Of a stretch of DNA of 64,000 nt, positions 57,294 to 63,877 are shown piece after piece. The notes under the pieces were generated by a model. That model saw only the letters and a program-made list of their open reading frames with translations, was not told where the DNA came from and searched no databases. Both the position numbers and the translations under genes were made by a program. The stretch is taken from positions 6,142,501-6,206,500 of the forward strand of contig NZ_CP120683.1 in the NCBI RefSeq assembly GCF_030506325.1. Reading direction: 5' to 3'. How positions within the stretch are numbered: position 1 is the stretch's first letter; the number at the start of each line of letters is the position of its first letter. This DNA is from Tunicatimonas pelagia (lineage in GTDB: Bacteria > Bacteroidota > Bacteroidia > Cytophagales > Cyclobacteriaceae).

Positions 57294-57546
57294 TTGTGAT
57301 AATTTTTAAATCAGAATGAATTGGATTGGGAGAAACTGAAGTAGGCAATAGTGAAATTCTAGTCGAGGTAGTTCCTCTGGATGTGATCTGTTTAAAGAAC
57401 GGTATGCTACAACCATAAATAGTAGGATGTGTCAGTAGCGTTGAAGCTAGTCAGAAATTAAATTTGTTCAAAATCTGCCTAACCAATTTACACTTTGTAC
57501 TTTACCATTCAGATCAGCAGATTCTAAAAAACGATTAACAATAAGA
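57294..57546. other. Intergenic, no gene seen
   Basis: Between the TIM-barrel gene and the tetR operator there are about 250 bases with no gene or recognisable repeat on either strand. It probably contains the promoter of the lipoprotein gene. Confidence 0.4.
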
Positions 57547-57564
57547 TTTAATCATTTGATTAAA
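57547..57564. promoter_or_regulatory. Palindromic operator TTTAATCATTTGATTAAA, presumed TetR site 1
   Basis: TTTAATCA and TGATTAAA are perfect inverted arms. The core TAATC-N4-GATTA (57549-57562) recurs at 59534-59547 in the same operon. It covers the putative -33 TTTG (57555-57558) of the promoter ahead of the inserted IS, a classic position for repression by the TetR protein encoded downstream. Confidence 0.65.
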
Positions 57565-57586
57565 TAAAGTGATTTTTATATATTTG
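57555..57586 (+). promoter_or_regulatory. Bacteroidota-type promoter TTTG-N20-TATATTTG
   Basis: TTTG at 57555-57558 and TATATTTG at 57579-57586 match the -33/-7 elements exactly, with 20 bases between. Without the IS element the ATG of tetR would lie about 27 bases downstream, so this looks like the original tetR promoter, now separated from its gene. Confidence 0.6.
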
Positions 57587-57601
57587 TATTATGTCAATAC
57601 T

Positions 57602-58873
57602 TCGGACAGAATTTAGGAAAAGAGAAGGCACCCCATTAAGTTAGTTTTGCGAACAACTTTAGGGTACCATGAAAACCATAGAGATTCTCCAGACGATAAT
57701 GGCAAAAATGCCGGACATATCCCAACCCATGCATAAGTTTTTAGTGCATCTTGTACAGGTGTTCTTATCGGCTAAGGGGCGTTATAACTTTACCAACTTG
57801 TCGCGCTGGGGCGACCTATGTGAGCGTACGTTTCGGCGTAATTACGACAAAGCTTTTGATTTCAGACACTTTAGTGAGGTGCTCATTGATCTGTTTTTTG
57901 CTAACCACTCCTGGATTGCGGTGAGTGACTGTAGCTACGTTGCTAAGAGCGGTAAAAAGACGTACGGTTTGGATAGGTACTGGAGCGGATGCTCCCAAAA
58001 AGCAATTAAAGGATTAGAGATTAGTGCGCTGGCTTTGGTATCAGTGAAAAGCGGATTGGCCTTAACCCTATCGGTACACCAAACCCCTGGTGGACTCAAA
58101 GACGAGACCAACCGCTTACTTTTCTACTTACAGCAGCTAGTCCGTTGTAGTGCCTACCTGCTCAAAAAGACGAAGTACTGGGTGGTAGACGGCTTTTACG
58201 CCAAACAAGCCGCTTGGGATCAGGTAGCTGCGTTAGGTATGTTCATGATCACTAAGTTGCGCGGTGATGCCAATATGAACTACTTATATGAAGGCCCCCA
58301 AAAGCCCCGAGGGAGAAAACGCAAGAATGGGGGTAAAGTTCACTGGAAAGGCGATGAGGTGTTAACTCGTTTTGAACAACAGGGTACCACCCCTGAAGGT
58401 TGGCAAGTCTATTGCCAAGTGGTTTGGTCGGTAAAGTGGAAGCGAAAGATAAAAGTAGTGATGGTTACTACACAAAGTAAAAGCGGCCGAACCGGTTTGT
58501 TCTTGTTAGGATGTTCGGATCTGGAACTCTCAGCAAGTCGTATTCTAGCATACTATCGCTTGCGCTTCAATATTGAGTTTCTCTTTAGAGATGCTAAGCA
58601 GCATTTAGGACTCAGCCACTGCCAAAGCACTCAAGAAAAACGTTTGGCCTTCCATTTTCAGGCCGTCATGATGACTTTGAATCTGTGTTTGGTAGAGAAT
58701 CACTTGCAGGGTAGAACCAGCTTCTCACTGCAAGACGTCAAAACAGAGCATTTTAATACCCGTTGGCTACAAATCATTATTTCAAACTTAAATCTGGACG
58801 CTGAGTCAATAAAAATGCACCCCAACTACCCAAAGCTATTGCAACGGGGAAAATTGGCTGCATAAAACTGTCC
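57602..58873 (+). mobile_element. IS4-family insertion sequence with ATACT flanks
   Basis: An element of about 1272 bases with one intact transposase gene. Its ends share GGACAG, at 57604-57609 and as CTGTCC at 58868-58873, and then TTT-rich sequence, giving short imperfect terminal repeats. ATACT occurs directly outside both ends (57597-57601 and 58874-58878), a probable five-base target duplication. End limits are inferred and could shift by one or two bases. It lies in the 5' leader of tetR in the same direction. Confidence 0.75.
57669..58865 (+). CDS. IS4-family DDE transposase
   Basis: A 398-residue transposase with an RNase-H-like catalytic core. The first Asp87 is in VSDCSYV, the second Asp174 in WVVDGFYAK, and Glu303 lies in the IS4 signature Y-(2)-R-(3)-E-(6)-K (Tyr296, Arg299, Glu303, Lys310), all present. 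The beta-strand insertion domain between the second Asp and the Glu is also of normal size. The gene is intact, so the element may still be mobile. Its stop is nine bases from the right end of the element. It reads towards tetR, so read-through transcripts could express the efflux operon. Confidence 0.93.
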   Translation: MKTIEILQTIMAKMPDISQPMHKFLVHLVQVFLSAKGRYNFTNLSRWGDLCERTFRRNYDKAFDFRHFSEVLIDLFFANHSWIAVSDCSYVAKSGKKTYGLDRYWSGCSQKAIKGLEISALALVSVKSGLALTLSVHQTPGGLKDETNRLLFYLQQLVRCSAYLLKKTKYWVVDGFYAKQAAWDQVAALGMFMITKLRGDANMNYLYEGPQKPRGRKRKNGGKVHWKGDEVLTRFEQQGTTPEGWQVYCQVVWSVKWKRKIKVVMVTTQSKSGRTGLFLLGCSDLELSASRILAYYRLRFNIEFLFRDAKQHLGLSHCQSTQEKRLAFHFQAVMMTLNLCLVENHLQGRTSFSLQDVKTEHFNTRWLQIIISNLNLDAESIKMHPNYPKLLQRGKLAA

Positions 58874-58884
58874 ATACTATTGTT

Positions 58885-59514
58885 ATGTCCAAAGAAGTAA
58901 ATACGTCAAAAGAGCTTTCTACTGAAGAAAAAATAAAGCAAGCAGCGGCCAAGGTGTTTGTACACAAGGGCTACGCTGCTACCAAAACCCGCGATATTGC
59001 TGAAGAAGCTGGAATCAATATCGCTTCATTACATTACTACTATCGCAGCAAGGATAAACTCTTCGAGTTGGTCATTGGTGAAGCCTTAAAAAGGTTTTCT
59101 AAAATGATGGACAGTACTTTTAACAATGATATGCCACTGCATGAGAAGATAAAAATCTTTGTAGAAAAATATATTGACTTTATCCGGGAGAACCCGATGG
59201 TTCCGCTATTCATTGTCGCCGAATCGCAGCACAACCCAGAAACAGTGGATAAACTAATGGCAAATGAACGGACCTTGGACAAGCTAGAGTCTCAGTTTGA
59301 AGAACTAGTTGAACAAGGTGCTATTCGCAAAATGCACCATGCCCAATTTATGATGAACATGGTTAGCCTCACAATTTTTCCGTTTCTCATGAAACCACTT
59401 CTGTTACATAAAGTTGGGCTATCGCTAGATGAGTATAATGACTTGCTGGAAGAACGTAAAGAAATAATCCCAGAGATGATTATAAATTATTTGTATCTGA
59501 AGAAACCAACATGA
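58885..59514 (+). CDS. TetR/AcrR-family transcriptional regulator of the RND operon
   Basis: A 209-residue regulator. The helix-turn-helix is at about 14-60 (EEKIKQAAAKVFVHKGYAATKTRDIAEEAGINIASLHYYYRSKDKLFELV, a standard TetR N-terminus), and the C-terminal helical domain would bind the effector. The ATG at 58885 follows the IS by eleven bases. Directly downstream come the membrane fusion protein and RND pump genes it presumably represses, with operator copies on both sides of tetR. The IS has removed tetR from the proximal operator-promoter, so its level and autoregulation may have changed. Confidence 0.9.
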   Translation: MSKEVNTSKELSTEEKIKQAAAKVFVHKGYAATKTRDIAEEAGINIASLHYYYRSKDKLFELVIGEALKRFSKMMDSTFNNDMPLHEKIKIFVEKYIDFIRENPMVPLFIVAESQHNPETVDKLMANERTLDKLESQFEELVEQGAIRKMHHAQFMMNMVSLTIFPFLMKPLLLHKVGLSLDEYNDLLEERKEIIPEMIINYLYLKKPT

Positions 59515-59533
59515 AATTTTTTTGCTCTAATTA

Positions 59534-59547
59534 TAATCAAACGATTA
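59534..59547. promoter_or_regulatory. Operator TAATCAAACGATTA, presumed TetR site 2
   Basis: TAATC and GATTA inverted arms with a four-base centre, identical in half-site and spacing to 57549-57562. It lies 37 bases upstream of the MFP gene start, suggesting a second TetR-controlled promoter for the pump genes. Confidence 0.6.
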
Positions 59548-59583
59548 CATCATAAAGTATAAACAGTTAAACAAATCAAAATA

Positions 59584-60693
59584 ATGAAAGCTAAGAAAAT
59601 AACATTATATCTGGTAGGGTTACTGTTTCTCGGCACCCAGTGGCAGTGTAGCGAGTCATCGGGGGAGAATCAGACTGCTTCAGCCCCAGCTAAGACCGAA
59701 AATATCCGCAAGTTTACCACCCAGTCCGCTGAGCCTCAGTCTATCAGACACAGTATCAGCCTCACCGGGCGCGTGGTGCCTCAGCAAAAAATCGACGTGG
59801 TAGCTCAGGTGCAGGGCATAGCCGAAAGCCGCCGTAAACCCTTTGAAGAGGGGCAAACATTTCAGCGGGGTGAAGTACTGCTTTCGCTTGATGACGATGA
59901 GTTTCGTAGTAACTTGGCTGCTCAGAAGAGTCAATTCTTAGCTTCGTTGGTTCGTATCATGTCGGATTTGAAGCTGGATTATCCTAGCAATTTTCCGGCC
60001 TGGAACCAGTACCTAAAGCAATTGGATATAAACCAATCACTATCGTCGCTACCCGAAGTGGAAAACGAGCAGTTGCGCTATTTTTTATCCGCCAATAACA
60101 TTTTTAACCTCTACCACACTATTCGAAGCCAAGAAAAAACCTTAGAGAAGTACACAATTCGGGCACCCTTCACCGGGGCAGTGACCCAGACGATGATTGA
60201 TGCCGGAGGGCTGGTGAGTTCGGGAGTGAAGCTAGGTGAGTTTATCCGCACCGATCAGTATGAAGTGCAGGCGGCCGTATCGGTAGAGGACTTGGAATTA
60301 GTGGAAGTTGGACAAACAATTCCGTTGAGCTCTCATAGCATTTCCGGGGAGTGGATGGGGCAGGTAAACCGAATCGGTAAACGAGTAGACCCCGCTACGC
60401 AATCGGTATCGGTTTATCTGTTGGTAGCGGGCGAGCGACTCAAAGAAGGCATGTACCTAATGGGAGATCTGGCTTCACGCACCTACGAAAACGCAGTAGA
60501 AATGCCAAAGGAAGTACTCACTCGCCAAAACCAGGTCTATGTTATTGAAGATTCAGTGGTCAAACTCAAAAATGTTACCCCGCTAGAATATCAGGAAACG
60601 ACGGTGATTCTACAAGGGCTGGCTCAAAATGACCAAGTAATCACGGATCTAGTAAGCTCTCCAATTCAAGGTATCACCGCTGTTTCCAAATAA
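59584..60693 (+). CDS. RND efflux periplasmic adaptor (membrane fusion protein), lipoprotein
   Basis: A 369-residue HlyD-like adaptor with a lipoprotein signal ending GTQWQC (Cys23). It has the split lipoyl domain (SLTGRVVPQQKIDVVAQVQGIAESR, about 57-80, and APFTGAVTQTMIDAGGLVSSG, about 195-215) around a short helical part, then a beta-barrel and a C-terminal membrane-proximal domain ending DLVSSPIQGITAVSK. The helical hairpin is short, as in adaptors that contact TolC through few helical turns. It links the RND pump at 60710 to an outer-membrane channel. Sixteen bases separate the genes. Confidence 0.92.
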   Translation: MKAKKITLYLVGLLFLGTQWQCSESSGENQTASAPAKTENIRKFTTQSAEPQSIRHSISLTGRVVPQQKIDVVAQVQGIAESRRKPFEEGQTFQRGEVLLSLDDDEFRSNLAAQKSQFLASLVRIMSDLKLDYPSNFPAWNQYLKQLDINQSLSSLPEVENEQLRYFLSANNIFNLYHTIRSQEKTLEKYTIRAPFTGAVTQTMIDAGGLVSSGVKLGEFIRTDQYEVQAAVSVEDLELVEVGQTIPLSSHSISGEWMGQVNRIGKRVDPATQSVSVYLLVAGERLKEGMYLMGDLASRTYENAVEMPKEVLTRQNQVYVIEDSVVKLKNVTPLEYQETTVILQGLAQNDQVITDLVSSPIQGITAVSK

Positions 60694-60709: not shown

Positions 60710-63700
60710 ATGCGAAGTATAATAAAATATCTTATTCAAAGCCCGACGTTGGTTAACCTGTTCGTAATCCTACTGGTTGGGATTGGGCTTCTGCGACTAG
60801 CTCAGACCCGTAGCACTACGTTCCCTAGCCAGAAAGTGCGCTTTATTGATATGACTGTTCCGTATCCGGGTGCGAGTCCCAGTGAGGTAGAAGAGGGAGT
60901 TACTGCCCGTATTGAGGATAACTTGGAAAGTGTCACTGGTATTGATCGGGTAACCTCTACTTCTCGAGAAAACTTGGCTTCTATCCAGGTGGAGCTGGAA
61001 GAAAATGCTGATGCGGATAAAATGCTGGTGGAAGTAAAGAATGCAGTAGACCGTATTAATAATTTCCCGAGTGGGGTAGAGCCGGTGTCTATCCAGAAGC
61101 GCGAACCACTCAATTTAACAATGAGTGTTGCTCTACAAGGCGATTTGCCACTGCAAGCAATGAAAGATTACGCTGAAGAAATTCGGGATGATCTGATGAC
61201 CGCGCCGGGTATCTCAACCGTAATGATCAGCGGCGTACCGGAAGAAGAAATTGAAATTCGGGTACGGGAAAATGACCTGCGGGCGTACAGTTTGACCATT
61301 AGCGATGTGCAACGAGCGGTTCAAAATGCCAATCTGGAAACCTTTGGCGGAAGTATTGAGACGGGAGAAGAAAACATTTCTATTAAAGCCAATGAGAAGG
61401 GGTACTATGCGAAAGATTTACAAAATATTGTAGTGCGGGCTACTCCCGACGGTAACGTAGTTTACTTGAAAGAAGTGGCCGAGGTAGTAGATCAGTTTAA
61501 AGATTCGCCTACTGCTCGCTACTTAGAAGACGAGCGGGTAATTACCGTTACGGTTTACACCCTAAATGATGAGGATATTCTGGAAAACGCGACTTACGCT
61601 AGAGACTATATCGCTACGTTTAACGACCGCCATGCTGGGATTGACCTGCTGGTACTGGAAGATGGCACTGGCACCTTGCAAGATCGGCTCAAAACCATGA
61701 TAAACAACGGAGTGGTGGGAGTTGTACTGGTGTTGATTGTTCTCGCGCTATTCCTCGATAAACACCTAGCCTTCTGGGTAGCCCTAAAAATCCCGGTAGC
61801 CATTATCGCGATGTTTATTTTTGCTGACATCTACGGGATAACCATTAATGCGGTGTCGCTGTTTGGGTTTATTTTGGTACTAGGTATTCTGGTTGATGAT
61901 GGAGTAGTGATCGGGGAGAATATCTACCAACACGCTAAGGAAAAAGGAAAGAAACCGCTCCGCGCAGCACTGGAAGGAACCCTGGAGATGATTACCCCTG
62001 TCACTATTTCACTTTCCACCACGGCAATTGCCTTTTCGTTGTTCTTATTCTTGCCTACGCAAGCGGGAGAATTTTTCGGCGAGATGGCCTTCGTCGTAAT
62101 TTCAGTATTATTTGTGGCCTTCCTGGAAAGCTTTTTCATTCTACCCGCTCACTTGGCGCACTCCAAAGGCTTGCGAGAAAATAGTAAACCATCGCGCATA
62201 GAACGCTGGGCGAGTAGTTCAGTAGCCTTTCTACGCGATAAGGTCTATATGAAGTTATTTCACCGAACTGCCGTAGGCCGGGGGTGGATGCAAGGCTTGA
62301 CGTTTATAGCATTCGTGGGTTTACTAGTTGGCTCGGTATCCCTTATTAGTGGGGGAGTAGTCAATTTTACTTTCTTCCCTAACTTAGACGATGATGCCTT
62401 CTTCATTGAGTTGGAACTTTCCCCCGGCACTCCGGTAGAGGTAACTCAACAGAAATTAAGTCAAATTGCCGAAGCAGCTCAAGAAGTTAATACTGACCTG
62501 AGTGAAGGTAGGGAAGATAAAAAAGAAATCATCCGTTTTGTGGAGATAGTCACTGGTCCGCTGGACAACCAAGGGCAGATAAAAGTAACGATGCTCGGTG
62601 GTGAAGAGCGTGGTATTAGCTCGTTTAAGGTTTCCAATGCTATTCGCGAAGCAGCTCCGCCTATCCCGGAGGCTACCCGACTAATTTATGGCTTGGGGGC
62701 ATCGACGTCTTTGTTCGGCTTACCCGTATCATTCTCACTAAAGAGTAAAAACTTGGAAGAACTGCGACTAGCAAAACAAGAGCTTAAAGCAGCAATGGAG
62801 GATTTCCCCGACGTGAAGGATGTGTCGGATACCGATACACAAGGCAAACAGGAACTGCATATTAAACTGAAGCCCCAAGCGGAGCTACTCGGACTAAGTT
62901 TAGGACAAGTGTTAAATCAAGTGCGAGCGGGTTTCTTTGGAGCGCAAGCCCAAAGCTTACAGCGCGGAGATAACGAGGTAGAAGTATGGGTGCGCTATCC
63001 TAAAGAAGGGCGCAATACAAAGGCGGAACTATTGAATATGCGAGTTACGGATCCTGGTGGAAATACCTACTATCTCAAAGATATTGCTTCGGTAGATACG
63101 GAAGAGGGCACATTGGCAATTAACCATCTAGAGGGGCAACGGGAAATTCGTATCGAGGCGAACGTAGCTAGTAACGAGATATCTGCACCTCGAGCTATTA
63201 CTTACATTGAAACCGGATTACTACCTAGTATCTTGCAAAAGTATCCATCAGTATCTTACACCGTGGAGGGGCAAAACCGGCAGTCCTTCAAACTCATTGG
63301 AGCTATTACCACCATTGGCCCGATTATCTTGCTGTTCATATTGGCACTGATTATTATCAACAATAATTCGTTCTCCCAGGGGTTTCTGGTATTTGGTTTG
63401 TTTCCTTTCGCTGCCATTGGGGTCATCATCGGTCACTGGATTCACGGTGAGGCGGTAAACATCTTCTCATTGGTCGGTACAATTGCGCTTATCGGAGTAT
63501 TTGTGAACAATGCTCTGGTCTTTATCTCTACGCTCAACGATCTGCTTAAGGAGGGGAAAGATTTTATTGGAGCCATTGTTGAGTCGGCTCAATCCCGATT
63601 TCGCCCCATTATCTTAACTACCATTACTACAGTAGCGGGTTTAGGGCCGCTCATTGGTTCTAGTAGTACGGGAGCGCAGTTTCTAAAAGGCCCAGCGATT

Positions 63701-63877
63701 GCGATGGCTTACGGTTTAGGATTTGGAATTTTTAATGTACTCATTCTGCTGCCGCTAATGCTGGTCGTATTTAATCGCCTGCGCCTATGGTGGCATAATC
63801 GAGTACGAAACCGTCAGCTATCTCCGGCTGAAGTGGAACCAGCGGTCATGAAGCTTAAGTATACCATCAACGAATAA
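60710..63877 (+). CDS. RND-family efflux pump inner-membrane transporter (AcrB/MexF type)
   Basis: A 1055-residue proton-driven exporter with 12 helices and two large periplasmic loops in the usual repeat of two halves. TM1 starts LVNLFVILLVGIGLL (about 13-28), the porter-domain motif is YPGASPSEVEEGVTARIEDNL, and TM4 contains the proton-relay Asp pair in GILVDDGVVIGENI. The second half has FVNNALVFISTLND in place of the first-half TM4 and ends with LMLVVFNRLRLWWHN. Length is in the normal 1020-1060 range. The drug or metabolite exported is not known. Its stop overlaps the next frame's ATG by one base. Confidence 0.95.
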   Translation: MRSIIKYLIQSPTLVNLFVILLVGIGLLRLAQTRSTTFPSQKVRFIDMTVPYPGASPSEVEEGVTARIEDNLESVTGIDRVTSTSRENLASIQVELEENADADKMLVEVKNAVDRINNFPSGVEPVSIQKREPLNLTMSVALQGDLPLQAMKDYAEEIRDDLMTAPGISTVMISGVPEEEIEIRVRENDLRAYSLTISDVQRAVQNANLETFGGSIETGEENISIKANEKGYYAKDLQNIVVRATPDGNVVYLKEVAEVVDQFKDSPTARYLEDERVITVTVYTLNDEDILENATYARDYIATFNDRHAGIDLLVLEDGTGTLQDRLKTMINNGVVGVVLVLIVLALFLDKHLAFWVALKIPVAIIAMFIFADIYGITINAVSLFGFILVLGILVDDGVVIGENIYQHAKEKGKKPLRAALEGTLEMITPVTISLSTTAIAFSLFLFLPTQAGEFFGEMAFVVISVLFVAFLESFFILPAHLAHSKGLRENSKPSRIERWASSSVAFLRDKVYMKLFHRTAVGRGWMQGLTFIAFVGLLVGSVSLISGGVVNFTFFPNLDDDAFFIELELSPGTPVEVTQQKLSQIAEAAQEVNTDLSEGREDKKEIIRFVEIVTGPLDNQGQIKVTMLGGEERGISSFKVSNAIREAAPPIPEATRLIYGLGASTSLFGLPVSFSLKSKNLEELRLAKQELKAAMEDFPDVKDVSDTDTQGKQELHIKLKPQAELLGLSLGQVLNQVRAGFFGAQAQSLQRGDNEVEVWVRYPKEGRNTKAELLNMRVTDPGGNTYYLKDIASVDTEEGTLAINHLEGQREIRIEANVASNEISAPRAITYIETGLLPSILQKYPSVSYTVEGQNRQSFKLIGAITTIGPIILLFILALIIINNNSFSQGFLVFGLFPFAAIGVIIGHWIHGEAVNIFSLVGTIALIGVFVNNALVFISTLNDLLKEGKDFIGAIVESAQSRFRPIILTTITTVAGLGPLIGSSSTGAQFLKGPAIAMAYGLGFGIFNVLILLPLMLVVFNRLRLWWHNRVRNRQLSPAEVEPAVMKLKYTINE

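Follow-up and report, generated by a model that had tools for sequence, protein, structure and literature searches.

The window (the whole stretch of DNA analysed, 64,000 nucleotides of the Tunicatimonas pelagia genome, G000, bases 6142501-6206500 of contig 1) carries an intact gene for a TetR-family repressor, an RND efflux operon behind it and an insertion sequence (IS) in front of it (Table 1). We have established the ends of the IS, its target duplication and the sequence of the empty site, and that tetR and two operator-like sites are intact. The repressor is assigned to its family by the TetR_N domain (PF00440, E 2e-15, 56.7 bits, cut-off 24), and its closest matches in named records are from uncultured Flammeovirgaceae, Fulvivirga and Cyclobacteriaceae, which places the genome in Bacteroidota; two of the three congeners searched have the gene, G002 (87% identical over residues 1-209) and G003 (65%). 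Adaptor (PF16576/TIGR01730), pump (PF00873) and outer-membrane channel occur together, as in an RND operon, the channel being the next ORF after the pump (L131, 8378-9883; OEP, PF02321, E 6e-58). An earlier sequence-only reading had described a promoter of the form TTTG-N20-TATATTTG and a palindrome lying across it, TTTAATCATTTGATTAAA, both of which are indeed present, and had placed an intact IS4-superfamily transposase unit, likewise confirmed, between this promoter and the intact TetR gene; the IS does part tetR from its own promoter and operator.

Table 1. Features at the tetR locus (positions in the window)
Feature	Position	Strand	Basis or remark
Putative TetR operator, palindrome TTTAATCATTTGATTAAA, overlaps the -33 element	57547..57564	.	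pattern and orthologs
TTTG, -33 element	57555..57558	+	TTTG-N20-TATATTTG
-7 box TATATTTG, tetR promoter	57579..57586	+	as far from the rejoined ATG as its counterparts in 4/8 orthologs
Target duplication TTATGT, left copy, 6 bp	57589..57594	+	four-copy comparison
17-codon ORF and stop, from the left ATG into the IS left end	57591..57644	+	translated; production predicted
Insertion sequence, 1288 bp	57595..58882	+	ends CAATACTTCGGACAG / CAATAGTATGGACAG; 4 identical copies
Hairpin, ends at the transposase ATG; may act as a shield against incoming transcripts	57626..57671	+	folding
Transposase ORF, 398 aa, DDE and complete YREK (Y296 R299 E303 K310)	57669..58865	+	Pfam, alignment
Target duplication TTATGT, right copy, with the present tetR start codon	58883..58888	+	four-copy comparison
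tetR, TetR-family repressor, 209 aa, intact	58885..59514	+	TetR_N
Operator-like site 2, TATAATCAAACGATTACA, ahead of the pump operon	59532..59549	.	2 mismatches to pattern
RND periplasmic adaptor	59584..60693	+	TIGR01730, 115.9 bits, cut-off 94.9
RND inner-membrane pump	60710..63877	+	ACR_tran (PF00873), E 1.3e-150

In the 7.29 Mb genome (4 contigs) the operator pattern TTTAATCNNTTGATTAAA is matched exactly by TTTAATCATTTGATTAAA only; allowing up to two mismatches raises the number to 20, some places being scored once per strand, and the control then gives 13. Two of these places belong to the tetR locus, and the second of them lies in the gap from tetR to the adaptor gene. For comparison we examined 27 loci, of which those at no less than 58% identity (12 rows) supplied eight distinct upstream sequences. 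A like palindrome precedes tetR in all eight of these orthologs, and an operator-like site together with the adaptor gene follows it in all eight (palindromes and sites judged by eye). TetR probably acts, through these predicted sites, both on its own promoter and in front of the pump genes, and neither site is disturbed by the IS.

About 8 kb downstream in the same genome (L131 11565-14852, C1:6209564-6212851) there is a second TetR, 35% identical to the first, in the company of a HlyD-type adaptor and an outer membrane efflux protein. G003, too, has two tetR genes, some 11 kb apart (the second at C22:111692). At the G003 locus (L045, 5001-9989) the adaptor is 92% and the pump 94% identical to those of the window but TetR only 65%, as if the repressor had either diverged far faster than the pump or been exchanged. 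In Croceivirga and Maribacter (L049, L050, L051) the ORF that follows the tetR homolog resembles, by eye, an oxidoreductase with a YDAIVIGSGISGGWAAKEL-type start rather than an adaptor; overlapping AATC..TGATT palindromes lie upstream of tetR at these loci.

Ends, empty site and age of the insertion

The four copies of the IS in the genome, compared side by side, are identical over 1288 bp and share the left end CAATACTTCGGACAG and the right end CTGTCCATACTATTG; as inverted repeats, CAATACTTCGGACAG and CAATAGTATGGACAG (the right end in reverse complement) are alike in 12 of 15 bases. The copies are flanked by duplications of 6, 6, 5 and 5 bp, respectively TTATGT (in the window), ATTAGT, ATATT and ATTAT. 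An IS end can be misjudged from a single copy, as the earlier reading demonstrates, in which an element bounded by GGACAG and CTGTCC, flanked by a 5-bp ATACT duplication, had entered a leader roughly 27 nt long. These words are truly there, at the positions given for them, but each of the four copies, at four unrelated sites, has ATACT at its left and its right end, and the word hence belongs to the inverted repeats of the IS; moreover, the bases TC separate ATACT from GGACAG on the left side only, relatives of the element have CAAT-type ends, and the TCAATACTATTGTT predicted to precede the ATG is absent from all eight orthologs. We have therefore rejected both the ATACT duplication and the GGACAG/CTGTCC ends, and consider this version of the event almost certainly wrong.

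Because the ends had been misplaced, the duplication, the empty site and the leader length derived from them were wrong as well. Removal of the IS yields the join TATATTTGTATTATGTCC and not TCAATACTATTGTTATG, an arrangement that the congeners share; the comparison of the empty site that had been proposed thus turned against the detailed model. The rejoined site reads TATATTTG-TATT-ATGTCC followed by AAA GAA, so that 4 nt, rather than some 27, separate the -7 box from the ATG, and the ATG does not lie 6 bases past the duplication but inside it, at 58885-58887 in the right copy and at 57591-57593 in the left. A staggered target of 6 bp, TTATGT, would on repair have copied the ATG onto both sides of the element. 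The ORF that opens at the left ATG translates as MSILRTEFRKREGTPLS and ends at 57644.

Whether relatives carry the same IS at this place was likewise a question of the earlier reading; in G002 and G003 the tetR promoters are uninterrupted. Since the four copies are identical, and since neither G002 nor G003 has a transposase match at E<=1e-20 (both are draft assemblies, in which IS copies can be missed), the data point to the insertion being a recent event in the present lineage. Genome G001 has a fragment of a relative of the transposase, 71% identical over 77 residues. Another of the identical copies (L132, G000 C1:4929500-4934000; match at 4930921-4932214) has at its right end a 301-aa ORF that can start only from an adjoining TTG, has no Pfam match and looks interrupted.

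Relatives and family of the element

The transposase matches DDE_Tnp_1 (E 1.1e-11, 45.3 bits, cut-off 23), and in an alignment with three relatives Y296, R299, E303 and K310 are invariant, as are D87 and D174; the first four form a complete YREK motif. CAAT-type ends occur also on relatives in Leptolyngbya, Deinococcus, Persicobacter and another Bacteroidota genome, G040. Scanning for matching ends and keeping the best-scoring pair, with a score that rewards a duplication, gave ends CAATAGTCCGGACAG and duplication GTTAAA (6 bp) for Leptolyngbya, CAATGGTTCGTGCAG and GTAGAT (6 bp) for Deinococcus, CAATAGTACG and ATTTAA (6 bp) for one copy in G040, and CAATACTCCG and TATTAAA (7 bp) for Persicobacter. 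On a Deinococcus plasmid with eight matches, seven elements have ends of the searched form; four of them are flanked by duplications of 6 bp, one by a duplication of 8 bp and two by none. No relative on viral contigs came out of the transposase search, and in a class-wide draw of 395 genomes the transposase matched its own genome only (E<=1e-60).

With its DDE transposase and complete YREK the element resembles the IS4 family as defined in 2008 (PMC2266710), and with its AT-rich duplications of 5-6 bp it resembles IS1634 of the same scheme. According to Table 1 of that paper, the duplications of the IS4 subgroups span 7-13 bp, a complete YREK being paired with 7 bp or more, whereas those of 5-6 bp belong to a family without complete YREK; the present element has 5-6 bp, most relatives that have a duplication have 6, and the combination of YREK with 5-6 bp fits none of the ten groups in the table. 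IS1634 is further marked by an incomplete YREK and 1500-2000 bp, against a complete motif and 1288 bp here, and IS701 by a 4-bp duplication. The best curated IS4 model (NCBIfam NF033592) gave 56.6 bits against a cut-off of 115, and the curated IS701 model (NF049999) 88.8 bits against 170, the latter scoring three relatives at 107, 99 and 124.3 bits, all under its cut-off. Set against that table, the element may represent a further group, for which a newer name could exist.

Spacing between promoter and start codon

As in the rejoined window, exactly 4 nt lie between the end of a strict -7 box (TAnnTTTG) and the ATG in four of the eight orthologs (G002, G003, L048 and L053). Elsewhere a box with one mismatch lies at 4 nt (L139), 10 nt (L047) or 17 nt (L140); upstream of tetR in L046 no -7 box was seen. 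The spacing is kept though bases in the box and beside it vary (TACTTTTG-TAGT, TATGTTTG-TATC, TACCTTTG-CTTC and TAATTTTG-TATC). Over 80 tetR loci the strict spacing is found at seven, and among the 674 ORFs of at least 150 aa in these loci at ten, seven of them tetR homologs. In Chitinophaga the box is 21-39 nt upstream in the 14 loci that have one in range; two Chitinophaga loci and one of Pontibacter (L056, L059; L069) have another palindrome, of TTAACCAAATGGTTAA type, downstream of the box in the leader, and here the layout of operator and promoter and the leader length seem to have changed together.

In Flavobacterium johnsoniae, 4 or 5 nt separate the -7 box from the transcription start in 241 of 434 candidate promoters, the 241 that were deemed probable promoters (PMC6847099). 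Combined with a gap of 4 nt, this spacing implies an mRNA that would begin at the AUG or one base into it, and there is good support for predicting that native tetR mRNA has its 5' end on the ATG or no more than 1 nt away from it and is leaderless. Our argument is built on the comparison of orthologs and not on the motif, because TTTG-N18-22-TAnnTTTG-N4-ATG is no commoner in the genome than its reversed control (five matches each) and because one of the four strict boxes, TATGTTTG of G003, has a G at -9, which is reported as virtually absent from F. johnsoniae boxes (PMC6847099). A genome-wide enrichment of promoter-N4-ATG is accordingly not supported by this single test. Leaderless mRNAs have been described as a minority in Bacteroidota: 5' UTRs shorter than 10 nt make up 3.7% in Bacteroides thetaiotaomicron, and leaderless mRNAs 5.5% of those examined in Flavobacterium psychrophilum. 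The spacing might instead be a by-product of operator placement, the true transcription start lying upstream or the true start codon downstream, and strict spacing in just half of the orthologs would agree with this; yet the next in-frame ATG, GTG or TTG is codon 24, inside the TetR_N match (residues 19-61), and the gap stays at 4 nt while bases in and next to the box differ, so we hold this explanation to be rather improbable. With a -7 box that ends exactly 4 nt short of the start codon in several species, this autoregulated repressor is a concrete candidate for a leaderless gene in this phylum.

Consequences for the repressor and the pump, and known systems

We think it likely that tetR was leaderless and autoregulated and that the 1288-bp IS recently transposed into the region of its start codon, leaving a repressor that depends on read-through and a pump that is partly derepressed. 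The gene is now second in a promoter-transposase-tetR unit, its ATG 19 nt past the transposase stop. Between 57501 and 58950 the only TAnnTTTG boxes on the + strand are at 57579 (native) and 57642 (before the transposase), with no consensus outward box near the IS right end or after it up to 58950, and hence a hybrid promoter formed with that end was rejected; nor does the IS-driven read-through once suggested find a consensus promoter there. With no such box, tetR, which would lack a recognizable promoter of its own, is probably reached by read-through. The transcript from the TetR-controlled promoter would start on the left ATG, yield the 17-codon ORF and enter the transposase gene, and tetR, last in the unit, would need internal initiation, with G at -3 where A is the favoured base. 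TetR supply should then fall and negative feedback be slowed or lost.

The earlier proposal that both tetR and the RND operon had been uncoupled from regulation holds for tetR, which has been cut off; the operator-like site of the pump 3' of tetR is untouched, and what is expected to change is therefore the repressor supply. The second operator being intact, a lower supply with partial derepression of the pump operon is the most likely outcome, though unproven, and adequate read-through is its serious rival.

In that rival, native transcripts and those from the 57642 box, which could run as far as tetR, keep the supply near normal. The genes are co-directional and closely spaced; terminator-like sites between 57300 and 59700 number two against 1.6 expected, none convincing, the single one on the + strand (58485) having a stem of 5 pairs; and the present start region folds less than its shuffles (z +1.46), which would favour initiation. 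Against this, transposase promoters are usually weak, a long read-through transcript would be exposed to premature termination, and the 57642 box has G at -10, a position reportedly virtually never G (PMC6847099). A near-neutral insertion is doubtful, with a real share of the probability. Less probable again, and in our view unlikely, is an effective loss of tetR expression with a constitutive pump: 1.29 kb now lie between promoter and gene with no consensus outward box near the right end, but tetR retains an intact ORF, with co-directional transcription available to it. The intact ORF may itself say little, as the identical copies suggest an event perhaps too young for decay.

Reduced, read-through-dependent repressor synthesis remains our preferred reading, and it places the transposase gene under the tetR promoter. 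In IS10 and IS50, hairpins in the transposase leader act as a shield against incoming transcription. The hairpin before the present transposase (-12.0 kcal/mol) is matched in stability by 14 of 500 shuffles of a stretch that was picked after folding, and leader hairpins beat most shuffles in four of five elements (the window and the leaders in L136, L144 and L146, Deinococcus excepted). Whole-leader z values are -1.02 for the window, -1.80 for Leptolyngbya, +1.01 for Deinococcus, -3.22 for Persicobacter and -2.08 for G040, separate runs on the window giving -0.20 and -0.54, and for the window the whole leader is not significant in any of them; shielding of the transposase start is suggestive at most. 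It is conceivable, if very unlikely, that transposition has come under the pump repressor, an inducer raising transposase before repressor in an accidental inducer-driven circuit; if so, a leaderless promoter would feed the transposase, and a ribosome on the 17-codon ORF would stop inside the hairpin.

IS insertions beside pump repressors are common, and efflux repressors of TetR type such as acrR are known to be disrupted by them. Here, unlike in such cases, the insertion has spared the coding sequence and duplicated the start codon, which sets up a natural test of whether Bacteroidota ribosomes initiate on one coding sequence in both leaderless and leadered form. In the literature searched we found no description of an IS that had copied a leaderless start codon as part of its target duplication. 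The tetR of Tn1721 has a divergent gene order and a different type of pump. Cited as an early leaderless case (PMC3017554), it is a TetR-type repressor gene of the kind predicted here, with no IS in its start codon. The acuR-acuI-dddL operon of Rhodobacter sphaeroides likewise begins with a TetR-family gene that represses its own operon, and acuR mRNA starts exactly at the AUG (PMC3017554); it belongs to another phylum and promoter type, is catabolic and has no IS, and its leaderlessness is reported whereas that of the present tetR is predicted. Both the type of event and leaderless TetR-type repressors are therefore known; a target duplication that copies a leaderless start codon is unusual.
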